From the NCBI GenBank assembly GCA_947499155.1, contig CANMND010000008.1:1-64000 (forward strand): a stretch of DNA of 64,000 nucleotides, written 5' to 3'. The notes beneath the pieces were generated by a model that was not told the DNA's origin, did no database searches, and saw only the letters and a program-made list of their open reading frames with translations. The position numbers and the translations under genes were made by a program. The stretch is from an uncultured Sphingomonadales bacterium (GTDB taxonomy: Bacteria > Pseudomonadota > Alphaproteobacteria > Sphingomonadales > Rhodothalassiaceae). This document shows, one piece after another, positions 4,388-48,672 of this stretch; the stretch's first letter is position 1; each line of letters opens with the position of its first letter.

Positions 4388-4807
4388 TTAAATCTGCTGG
4401 TCCAAGAGCGTTTGAAGCCGCAAGGCACGTCTGTAAAGCTGTACGCTTTGTTCCATAAGGTCATGAAACCAGTATGGCAGATGCTTATGGTTATCCGCCG
4501 CAGGTGTAAGGAAAATGTCTTCGTCCCCCAAACGGCAGTGCTGTGACCTGAGCTCTTGTCGGTCAATTTCTCCAGCCTCATACGCCTTGTGAAACATGCC
4601 CCATGCCATCACATTCATAATCCGGCTCGACAAGCGCATGGTCTCAATCGAATAGATCAATTGTTCTTTCTGTGACAGGTTACAATCCCCCACACCACGG
4701 GCGATACAGGCACGAGCTCTTTTTGCGAGAGACAGAGCCTCATAATAAGCAAGGTCAACACCAGGCCCCTTTAATACGATAGCGCTTATTTGCCGGTTTT
4801 CACCCAT
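4388..4807 (-). CDS. rcdA: DUF1465 family protein, RcdA-type ClpXP adaptor
   Basis: The 139-residue protein matches the DUF1465/RcdA family. It has an LAYYEALSLAKRAR helix, then ETMRLSSRIMNVMAWG, then a conserved AGEI segment. A C-terminal helix reads LMEQSVQLYRRALRLQTLL. In Caulobacter, RcdA works with PopA and CpdR to deliver CtrA and other substrates to ClpXP during the G1-S transition. The start is ATG at 4807, with GGGGAT at 4813-4818 as ribosome site; in-frame ATGs at 4819 and 4852 are alternatives. Its position beside rpmE is typical of alphaproteobacteria. The family assignment is firm; the cell-cycle role is inferred from Caulobacter. Confidence 0.8.
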   Translation of the reverse strand: MGENRQISAIVLKGPGVDLAYYEALSLAKRARACIARGVGDCNLSQKEQLIYSIETMRLSSRIMNVMAWGMFHKAYEAGEIDRQELRSQHCRLGDEDIFLTPAADNHKHLPYWFHDLMEQSVQLYRRALRLQTLLDQQI

Positions 4808-4914
4808 AGCACATCCCCACATATTAAAGCCCTGCCGGGACACATGGAACACTGCTCTGTCATGAGTATAGCAAATTCATAGACTTAACGCGTATGTTTC
4901 TGTGCTCTCCTGGC

Positions 4915-4942
4915 CTTGACTAAGAGAAAATACGTCTTATCT
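4915..4942 (+). promoter_or_regulatory. Heat-shock (sigma32, RpoH) promoter of hsp20
   Basis: CTTG (4915-4918), a 17-base spacer (4919-4935) and CTTATCT (4936-4942) match the alphaproteobacterial RpoH consensus CTTG-N17/18-CYTATNT. This predicts a transcript start near 4949 and a leader of about 105 bases, which is the length of the RNA thermometer that follows. Confidence 0.75.
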
Positions 4943-4948
4943 GAAGCT

Positions 4949-5053
4949 GTACGGTCGCCAATGACGGGACCGTAACAATCGGATGATCCGGCTCAAGGCG
5001 AGCGGATCAGATTGATTTGGCTCTATCGCTCATGAATGAAGAGGATAAAGGCT
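4949..5053 (+). promoter_or_regulatory. ROSE-type RNA thermometer in the hsp20 leader
   Basis: Three consecutive hairpins are visible. Hairpin 1 is ACGGTC (4951-4956) with GACCGT (4968-4973). Hairpin 2 is GATCCG (4985-4990) with CGGATC (5003-5008), extended by CTC/GAG. The last hairpin pairs TATC-G-CTC (5024-5031) with GAGGATA (5041-5047) around a 9-base loop, leaving G5028 bulged. Its TCGCT (5026-5030) fits the UYGCU anti-Shine-Dalgarno signature of ROSE elements and hides AGGA (5042-5045), 8 bases before the ATG at 5054. Heating should melt this stem and expose the ribosome site. Confidence 0.85.
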
Positions 5054-5524
5054 ATGCGTAGTTTTGATATGACCCCATTTATGCGGACCTCTATCGGATT
5101 CGATGACCTGTTTCGGCTTGCCGACAGTCGTTTCGATCAGGCCGCACAGGGATACCCCCCCTACAATATCGAAAAGATTGGCGAAGACGACTATCGCATC
5201 ACCATGGCTGTGGCGGGATTTGCAGCCGATGACCTTGATGTGGAACTGGAAGATCGCACCTTGACCATCACTGGCAAGGCATCGGAAGACGATGATGAAG
5301 GCCGGACCTATTTGCATCGCGGTATCGCCCGGCGCGCCTTCCAGCGCACATTCCAAATTTCGGAAACCATCGAAGTGAAGGGTGCTGATTTTGAAAACGG
5401 TCTGCTGACCGTCCTGCTTGAGCGTCGTGTTCCAGATCACATGAAGCCCCGCAAGATCGCTATCGATCAGGTGAAAAGCGACAAGACGCCAACACTTGAA
5501 GACAGTTCAAAAAACGCGGCTTAA
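5054..5524 (+). CDS. Small heat-shock protein, Hsp20 / IbpA-like
   Basis: The 156-residue protein begins MRSFDMTPFMRTSIGFDDLF, the IbpA-type N-terminus. An alpha-crystallin domain (about 34-135) carries the GLLTV segment and a C-terminal PRKIAI, which holds the I-x-I-type anchoring motif. It is an ATP-independent holdase chaperone that forms oligomers and binds unfolding proteins in the cytoplasm. An in-frame ATG at 5036 is rejected, because the thermometer masks AGGA placed exactly for the 5054 start. It is a single-gene unit with a heat-shock promoter, a thermometer leader and its own terminator. Confidence 0.95.
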   Translation: MRSFDMTPFMRTSIGFDDLFRLADSRFDQAAQGYPPYNIEKIGEDDYRITMAVAGFAADDLDVELEDRTLTITGKASEDDDEGRTYLHRGIARRAFQRTFQISETIEVKGADFENGLLTVLLERRVPDHMKPRKIAIDQVKSDKTPTLEDSSKNAA

Positions 5525-5562
5525 GCCAGACTGCCTGACTTAATCCGGTTTACCATGAACAG

Positions 5563-5593
5563 ACCCGTCGCCCCTGGTGGGCGGCGGGTTTTT
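5563..5593 (+). terminator. Terminator of hsp20
   Basis: An 11-bp stem with one G-U pair, ACCCGTCGCCC (5563-5573) and GGGCGGCGGGT (5579-5589), encloses loop CTGGT and is followed by T-rich sequence. Confidence 0.9.
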
Positions 5594-5601
5594 ATCTGCC
5601 A

Positions 5602-5805
5602 TCAATGGCCACCTTTGCCAAACAGGGCATGGGCAGCGGCTTCGCTTTTATCTTTTTTATCATGAACTGCGCGCGTTCGGACAATTTCTGCTTCAAGTCG
5701 CCCTATTCTCTCCAAAAGCTCTGACAGCGAATAGCGGTCAAGGTCTTCCGATTCCACCGCATCAATCGGTAGAGCGCGCCGAACTGGTCGATCATCCATG
5801 TCCAT
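5602..5805 (-). CDS. DUF1192 family small protein
   Basis: This 67-residue acidic protein has an N-terminal DDRPVRRALPI stretch. It is followed by YSLSELLERIGRLEAEI, a short coiled coil, and a tail ending HALFGKGGH. This is the layout of DUF1192, a small alphaproteobacterial family of unknown function. ATG at 5805 lies six bases after GGGAG; neighbouring ATGs at 5811 and 5799 are alternatives. It is divergent from the quinone oxidoreductase gene, a recurring arrangement in the class. The function is unknown; the single helix suggests a partner protein. Confidence 0.75.
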   Translation of the reverse strand: MDMDDRPVRRALPIDAVESEDLDRYSLSELLERIGRLEAEIVRTRAVHDKKDKSEAAAHALFGKGGH

Positions 5806-21316: not shown

Positions 21317-21480
21317 GTGACGGGCCCACCCTGGCCGTGGGTCTAGTATTCCTCTGGCGCCTAAAGCACCAGGTGGGTGCCGCGATAGCTGAACCAGAGC
21401 CCAGCCAGAGACAGCTCCCTTAAGGAAGATTATCGCCCCAGGGACATACGAAGCCTCACGCGCCGAGTAGTACCCGTCAC
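21317..21480 (-). ncRNA. ssrS: 6S RNA
   Basis: The ends of this 164-base stretch pair perfectly, GTGACGGG at the 5' end (21480-21473) with CCCGTCAC at the 3' end (21324-21317). The interior folds back on itself with a central open region bounded by GCGATA and TATCGC, and an apical AGCTG/CAGCT stem. This is the one-hairpin-with-bubble shape of 6S RNA, which mimics an open promoter and sequesters sigma70 RNA polymerase. Its place directly downstream of zapA on the same strand is the classic 6S locus. The exact ends are inferred from pairing only. Confidence 0.75.
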
Positions 21481-48157: not shown

Positions 48158-48313
48158 AGCATGCCAGCAGGCTGCCAATAACCGCCAAGAAATCATGACC
48201 AAACCAACCGCAAATGCGGCTTTGGGGCACGCACGGCTGTGGCGTGTTTTCCGTCTGTATGGCCTGTTTGCTGTTTTTACCCCTTTAAGCCCTTGGGCGA
48301 AGGGACTATATAA

Positions 48314-48672
48314 GGGGTGTCGGGAAACCGACTATGGCAGTAAACGATGCGTGAAATAGGCATTATGGACCCGGGGGCGGTACCCGGCGCCTCCACCACA
48401 AAAGTCTGGTAAACAACAAGGACCGGCGGACTTTTCTGATGGGGGCGAAATAGGCTCGACATGTGCTCAAAGACGATATCTTCTGCCCGGTATGGTACCA
48501 CCGTGATGGACCAAATTCATAAATGCCAATGATAACGAGGCATTTGCTGTTGCAGCGTAATCACGGCCTAGCGGCCTAGATTACAGAGCACTAAGCACGG
48601 TTTTCTGGGGTACACCGGGTAACAGAAGTATTCCCGCGGTTCGGAGGGCACCGGTCTCAAAAAGCCCTCCAC
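48314..48672 (+). ncRNA. ssrA: Circularly permuted two-piece tmRNA
   Basis: The acceptor part (about 48314-48398) comes first. It opens with a GTCGG-GAAA-CCGAC hairpin (48319-48332) and ends CGCCTCCACCA (48388-48398). After a removed spacer (48399-48440), the second piece starts GGGGGCG (48441-48447). This pairs with CGCCTCC, including G3-U70, the alanine identity pair. The tag codons run from GCC (48525) to TAA (48558-48560) and encode ANDNEAFAVAA, giving AANDNEAFAVAA with the tRNA alanine. TATATAA (48307-48313) is a candidate -10. The 3' end near 48672 is inferred from a GGAGGGC/GCCCTCC stem. Confidence 0.92.

Follow-up and report, generated by a model that had tools for sequence, protein, structure and literature searches.

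The window, as the whole 64,000-nucleotide stretch of DNA analyzed here is termed, is assigned to an alphaproteobacterium on the basis of a two-piece alphaproteobacterial tmRNA (48280-48636, 239.5 bits). It also contains a 6S RNA match at 21320-21476 that lies barely above threshold (47.5 vs 46.4 bits). The forward strand carries hsp20 (5054-5524), which encodes an IbpA-type small heat shock protein of 156 amino acids (PF00011, 9.3e-19) with 47% identity to E. coli IbpA. The closest NCBIfam model is NF008013 (IbpA), which the protein matches with 151.8 bits, below the cut-off of 212. The gene is flanked by a divergent DUF1465 gene and a convergent DUF1192 gene and is followed on the same strand by a likely intrinsic terminator (5562-5590) composed of a 12-bp stem and a T run, with 5562-5600 folding at -23.6 kcal/mol; a simple terminator scan returned none in 4800-5650. 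Downstream of hsp20 in two order-mates, the opposite strand gives below-threshold matches to the BjrC1505 RNA (L021:1249-1394 and L013:1244-1396), and the same region of L021 also gives below-threshold matches to the SorX and SorY sRNAs.

Sigma32 promoters consist of CTTG and a -10 element of the form C-N-N-A-N-N-T at a suitable spacing. A sequence of this type precedes hsp20 on the forward strand at 4915-4942, with CTTG at 4915-4918, a 17-nt spacer, and CTTATCT at 4936-4942, so that the CTTG-N17-CTTATCT reading of the initial annotation is exact in its coordinates. Taken by itself, the pattern is weak because CTTG-N17/18-CYTANMT, which occurs once in the 64-kb window, is expected 0.36 times there and appears at least once in 26/100 shuffles. 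The candidate promoter becomes strong once relatives are compared: CTTG-N14-19-CNNANNT lies at the matching place, upstream of the hairpins described below, in 64 of 85 hsp20 leaders vs 2.8 expected from shuffling. These 85 leaders are what remains of 112 after removal of L048, L054, L056, and short or duplicate leaders. The covariance model with which relatives were searched excludes the promoter, and the promoter count is therefore independent of how the loci were found. Spacer lengths among the matches are 17 (43 cases), 18 (18 cases), and 19 (4 cases), and the consensus over hsp20 leaders is CTTGAA followed by C(C/T)TANAT. The remaining 21/85 leaders have no sigma32-type pattern, which is counted against dual control. 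One RpoH above its family's cut-off is encoded in the genome of the window. The sequence before hsp20 thus appears to be a sigma32-type promoter that is kept in relatives; it would be used by RpoH and, judging from its placing, would start transcription at about 4948-4950, at the foot of the first hairpin.

The minimum free energy (MFE) structure of 4946-5056 (-39.6 kcal/mol, z -3.15, with 1/200 shuffles equally stable) comprises three hairpins, all on the forward strand. Hairpin I (4950-4974) is predicted to have a single bulged G4957 in its 5′ arm (UC[G]CC / GGGA), and hairpin II (4976-5014) a single bulged G4991, or the equivalent G4990, also in the 5′ arm. In the MFE fold of hairpin III (5018-5054), the presumed thermosensing element, UCGCU (5026-5030) pairs with AGGA (5042-5045), leaving G5028 bulged. 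This AGGA is the Shine-Dalgarno (SD) sequence, located 8 nt before the ATG at 5054-5056, and the lower stem of the hairpin extends to the A of that start codon (5054). The proposal of the initial annotation that the last hairpin masks AGGA with TCGCT and a bulged G5028 is therefore borne out at exact positions (TCGCT 5026-5030, G5028, and AGGA 5042-5045). Two further ATGs, at 5032 and, in frame, at 5036, both lie in the loop of hairpin III and were rejected as hsp20 starts because the starts of relatives align with 5054 and the SD sequence fits 5054. An ORF of nine codons begins at the ATG at 5032 and runs across the start of hsp20 (5032-5061). Neither loop ATG is kept in aligned relatives, and both are probably due to chance.

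Comparison with relatives points to the same structure. The T[CT]GCT/AGGA motif is present in 34/36 loci found by protein; the two loci without it (L035 and L036) were left out of the structure work, and five of the 34 (L012, L018, L020, L029, and L033) were dropped as duplicates or for a mis-set start or odd spacing. Removal of 7 of the remaining 29 leaders as odd or indel-rich gave alignment A1, a MAFFT alignment of 22 leaders made by sequence alone, with 19 leaders from the window's order and three (L031, L032, and L034) from a related-loci scan that yielded only six loci. In A1, 93.6% of cells pair and 12/20 pairs show double changes, while slid-partner controls pair at 33-58%, a comparison that favors the proposed structure over its slid versions because that structure was derived from the same alignment. 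Changes on both sides occur in 5/8 pairs of hairpin I, 4/5 pairs of hairpin II, and 3/7 pairs of hairpin III. AGGA is present in 22/22 leaders of A1, which were chosen from motif-bearing leaders. For the outer stem of hairpin III, aligned without gaps on UYGCU and AGGA in 33 leaders, the observed pairing was reached by 0/5000 arm shuffles, which ignore relatedness. An arm-shuffle figure for hairpin I is not used as evidence because it is biased by how this hairpin was picked. In the larger set, T[CT]GCT-N3-14-AGGA occurs in 81/85 leaders, many of which were found with RNA models and therefore lean towards the motif, and at a rate of 3% when the part upstream of the SD sequence is shuffled. The three-hairpin leader proposed from the window is thus upheld by its MFE fold, by its z score, and by covariation in all three hairpins.

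For this leader, no clear opening of the SD sequence by heat is predicted. ViennaRNA gives an SD accessibility of 0.04-0.09 for 4949-5085 from 20 to 50 °C and mostly below 0.25 with other fragment ends; a fragment ending at 5083 adopts an alternative fold in which the SD sequence is open at 25 °C (about 0.65) and becomes closed upon heating. Over 81 leaders, a median accessibility of 0.10 at 25 °C becomes 0.18 at 42 °C, and the predicted rises are also small at loci matched by RF00435, the Rfam ROSE model, so the energy model decides little. When G5028 is deleted in silico, the folded leader gains 4.1 kcal/mol of stability at 25 °C, as is expected for a bulge; this proves nothing about function. 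The missing prediction of a clear SD opening, along with the good conservation of the sigma32-type promoter, would suit heat control of transcription only, with the hairpins serving mRNA stability and the SD pairing being incidental. However, the SD-masking stem covaries outside the SD sequence itself, and UYGCU stands opposite the SD sequence in E. coli and in leaders outside the class, a feature that stability alone does not require. Control confined to transcription is therefore regarded as highly improbable.

The covariance-model check called for by the initial annotation went against it with respect to the database families. The window has no ROSE match at the Rfam gathering thresholds (45 bits for RF00435 and 65 bits for RF01832, ROSE_2), so the leader is placed in neither family, and neither model matches 4850-5120 at E<=10. 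No RF00435 match at E<=10 is present in the whole genome of the window either. Across 289 genomes of the class, a search with RF00435 at E<=0.01 finds 18, a single one of which exceeds the threshold. Two leaders of A1 are recognized to different extents by this model: L032, from a relative's hsp20, passes with 48.2 vs 45 bits, and L031 scores 33.2 bits. Two further RF00435 matches (L048 and L054) have no hsp20 downstream and were set aside. The E. coli ibpA leader is an RF01832 ROSE_2 member (100.4 bits) for which no RF00435 match is reported at E<=0.1; overlapping matches of related families are reduced to the best one only if the families share a clan, and no clan is listed for RF00435 or RF01832. 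Since ibpA is a reported thermometer that RF00435 likewise misses, the failure of this model on the window leader limits its assignment to a database family and not its assignment to the ROSE kind.

The missing Rfam match might also be read as a sign of decay, in which case the leader would be a degenerate ROSE element acting as a constitutive translational brake that heat does not relieve here. The core UCGCU, which forms one more G-C pair than UUGCU, agrees with such a brake. Nevertheless, 40/81 motif-bearing leaders use this form, as do the leaders of E. coli ibpB and of ibpA, the latter being a reported thermometer (PMC9450479), and conservation across the family argues against decay. An unrelieved brake is accordingly deemed barely plausible.

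Because the Rfam ROSE models miss the window, a covariance model (R1) was built from the 22 leaders of A1. R1 gives the window leader 67 bits and recovers 17 of the 18 RF00435-found loci, none of which is in its own alignment by locus. When 8 kb of E. coli sequence spanning ibpAB is searched with filters off, the best R1 hits are the leaders of ibpB (23.8 bits) and ibpA (22.1 bits), well ahead of the next hit at 8.9 bits. R1 thus bridges the window and both Rfam ROSE families (RF00435 and RF01832) at the level of sequence models. Genome counts with R1 are lower bounds, since searches over more than 40 genomes use stricter filters. At the class level, R1 matches 101 places in 98/289 genomes, all before heat-shock genes (95 hsp20, of which three were assigned by reading the ORF and the rest by tblastn, 5 rpoH, and 1 clpB). 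At the order level, it matches 93 places in 87/147 genomes; among the 36 places examined, 33 precede hsp20, one precedes clpB, and two (L230 and L232) have no heat-shock gene downstream. In a phylum sample, 70/398 genomes are matched, 16 of them outside the class, and 18 of the 19 places outside the class lie before hsp20.

Weaker R1 matches require more caution. Of the two RF00435 loci without hsp20, L054 is matched weakly (24.2 bits) and L048 is not matched. In the window's own genome, a match of 16.7 bits (L056) has no heat-shock gene downstream and was taken as chance. A second hsp20 of the same genome has a match in the right position (L057, C5:75513-75619) that is non-significant (15.6 bits, E 1.07). 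Its leader carries TCGCT, GGAGGAT, and a CTTG / CCCATAT promoter-like pair. That the match of this second gene is non-significant and ranks below L056 is counted against the thermometer reading.

ROSE-type leaders are characterized by (i) a U(U/C)GCU that pairs imperfectly with the SD sequence so that a G bulges out, (ii) a 5′ UTR with two to four hairpins and the SD sequence in the last, (iii) a small heat shock gene downstream, which is usual but not universal, (iv) a resemblance to established ROSE leaders that goes further than the motif, and (v) translation that increases with temperature as the SD hairpin opens. The window leader is predicted to pair UCGCU imperfectly with AGGA, with G5028 bulged, and to form three hairpins, the last of which holds the SD sequence; by sequence, it precedes a small heat shock gene and resembles known ROSE leaders through R1. 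The window therefore very probably contains a divergent ROSE-type RNA thermometer behind a sigma32-type promoter, which together would act as a double heat switch for hsp20. This agrees with the combined sigma32 and ROSE reading of the initial annotation: both halves are conserved before hsp20 in relatives, the helices covary, and R1 supplies the likeness to known leaders. In the proposed mechanism, the sigma32-dependent promoter would yield an hsp20 mRNA whose 5′ leader measures about 105 nt. In this leader, hairpin III would hide the SD sequence at growth temperature through UCGCU/AGGA pairing with G5028 bulged out. Upon heating, the predicted hairpin would open and ribosomes would load, and RpoH would raise hsp20 transcription in parallel. 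Hairpins I and II, built with the same bulged-G geometry, would be stable neighbors of hairpin III that probably assist its independent folding and may bind something.

The bulged G of the thermosensing hairpin appears to be a recurrent feature of the entire leader. Folding of the 85 leaders as raw sequence (the 108 nt that precede the start codon and 8 more), with no motif assumed, gave 201 single-base bulges on 5′ arms, of which 182 are G, compared with 24 on 3′ arms. The 5′-arm bulges cluster near -90, -57, and -25. Dinucleotide shuffles give 7.9 5′-side G bulges per 85 leaders vs the 182 in real ones, and at least three bulged Gs are present in 33/85 leaders and in 0/850 shuffles. Random 116-mers of the window never have two (0/600). 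The 32 leaders with exactly three bulged Gs most commonly space them at 34 and 33 nt and have inner stems of 2-4 bp. These counts come from predicted folds in which neighboring Gs of hairpin II are often interchangeable, and many leaders entered the set through RNA-model searches. Among 35 leaders found by protein similarity only, three bulged Gs are predicted in 18, two in 8, one in 7, and none in 2.

The middle hairpin contributes to this pattern. The region between hairpins I and III has a single 5′-side bulged G in 24/33 protein-found leaders, and region II of the 85-leader set has a 5′-side bulged G in 48/72 (2.3 expected), a count that leaves out 13/85 leaders without a recognizable hairpin I or III. 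For the window, the predicted bulged Gs are G4957, G4991 (or G4990), and G5028. In the folded E. coli ibpA leader, bulged Gs stand at -79 and -50; a third one, at -23 in hairpin III, joins them if the folded piece includes 115 nt of leader or more, the MFE structure of shorter pieces lacking hairpin III. For E. coli ibpB, bulged Gs are predicted in hairpin I and hairpin III but not in hairpin II, and one of the three lengths tried shows both at once. Outside the class, 34/40 5′-side bulges are G, and three occur in 5/18 leaders.

A binding role for the leader is suggested by E. coli IbpA, which is reported to bind its own 5′ UTR and repress translation (PMC10474464). This binding is described as needing R93, positive charge at positions 97 and 98, and an aromatic residue at position 34, and the authors note R93 and Y34 in alphaproteobacteria (PMC10474464). 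The window protein has equivalents of Y34, R93, and R97, with T in place of K98, and the sites are conserved in the 85 Hsp20s of the leader set (R in 84 at the R93 site, aromatic in 85 at the 34 site, and R in 79 at the R97 site). The leader could therefore be chiefly an Hsp20 binding site, with autorepression relieved by aggregates and temperature acting mainly by that route. The T at the K98 site speaks against this possibility, the conservation of Y34 and R93 may have other reasons, and binding leaves melting possible, both having been reported for E. coli ibpA. A leader that is chiefly a binding site is considered unlikely, although not negligible.

The conservation of Y34 and R93 and the binding of the 5′ UTR by E. 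coli IbpA also lead to an unproven and clearly improbable idea, in which the ROSE leader is a tandem array of three nearly equivalent bulged-G hairpins, spaced by about 33 nt, that serves as a multivalent docking site for oligomeric Hsp20 and that is also present on rpoH in some lineages. Hsp20, via its R93/Y34 surface, would bridge the three predicted bulged Gs and keep the SD hairpin shut, and heat would melt hairpin III as aggregates draw Hsp20 off.

Leaders of the ROSE type may extend beyond hsp20, for which the leaders on rpoH and clpB are sequence-based leads. R1 matches before rpoH in five genomes of the class with 29.5 to 38.6 bits. The rpoH gene is directly downstream in three cases (L122/L170 of G287, L130/L173 of G156, and L225 of G081). 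A short ORF lies between the match and rpoH in the other two (L207 of G218 and L211 of G312), and in L211 its stop overlaps the rpoH start, as in translational coupling. Matches before clpB are found in one genome of the class sample (L134/L177 of G248, 26.6 bits) and in one order-mate (L231 of G010, 26.8 bits), the latter with an out-of-frame ATG at the leader's usual start position and the clpB start shortly after. Hairpins of the ROSE kind are predicted in the rpoH and clpB leaders, not always all three, and a sigma32-type pattern is upstream of 2/2 clpB leaders and 0/5 rpoH leaders. The window's own genome and its relatives together provided 30 rpoH loci, in which the search for a ROSE-type leader gives two weak matches only, none of them at the own-genome locus; the better one (L165, 16.2 bits) is just upstream of rpoH. 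A 2014 review states that ROSE elements always accompany small heat shock genes (PMC4166951), although later work reported some upstream of ABC transporter genes (PMC11342760). A partial literature search found no report of a ROSE leader before rpoH or clpB, and newness is not claimed.

The window leader shares many traits with characterized systems. As in the RF00435 ROSE consensus, bulged GCC/GG marks hairpin I, a middle hairpin follows, and the leader ends in a UYGCU/AGGA hairpin with a bulged G; in contrast, the middle hairpin of the consensus is without the bulge predicted for hairpin II. Like the E. coli ibpA leader (RF01832), which also forms three bulged-G hairpins when at least 115 nt are folded, it sets UCGCU opposite AGGA and precedes a small heat shock gene with a sigma32-type promoter, ibpA being reported to be under sigma32 (PMC10474464), although ibpA scores 22.1 bits with R1 vs 67 for the window. 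The ROSE-like ibpA leaders of Pseudomonas are reported to combine sigma32 transcription with ROSE-type control of translation (PMC3669281), but these short thermometers have two hairpins instead of three. The ROSE-like and ROSE-G elements described before ABC transporter genes share the bulged G in the SD hairpin and differ in the genes they precede, and ROSE-G differs further in its CUGCU and opposing bulged Gs (PMC11342760, PMC12857270).

Dual control by sigma32 and a ROSE-type element is described for P. putida ibpA (PMC3669281), and rhizobial small heat shock genes are reported to carry ROSE elements and to be rpoH-dependent in S. meliloti (PMC3989490). The window element is thus an ordinary, well-built example of a known arrangement. 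As far as sequence can tell, it belongs to the known ROSE kind and has diverged beyond the present Rfam models. Its wider relevance stems from the reach of one model across two separate Rfam families, with matches in 98/289 class genomes vs 18 for RF00435. The function of the upstream ROSE hairpins is described as not fully understood (PMC3669281), and both upstream hairpins of the E. coli element reportedly stay stable from 20 to 50 °C (PMC9450479). Their predicted sharing of the thermosensing hairpin's bulged G makes their role directly testable. Bench work would be most worthwhile on the recurring bulged G and on the leaders before rpoH and clpB. If the docking array were real, its presence on rpoH in some lineages would mean that one RNA element gates both a chaperone and a sigma factor.
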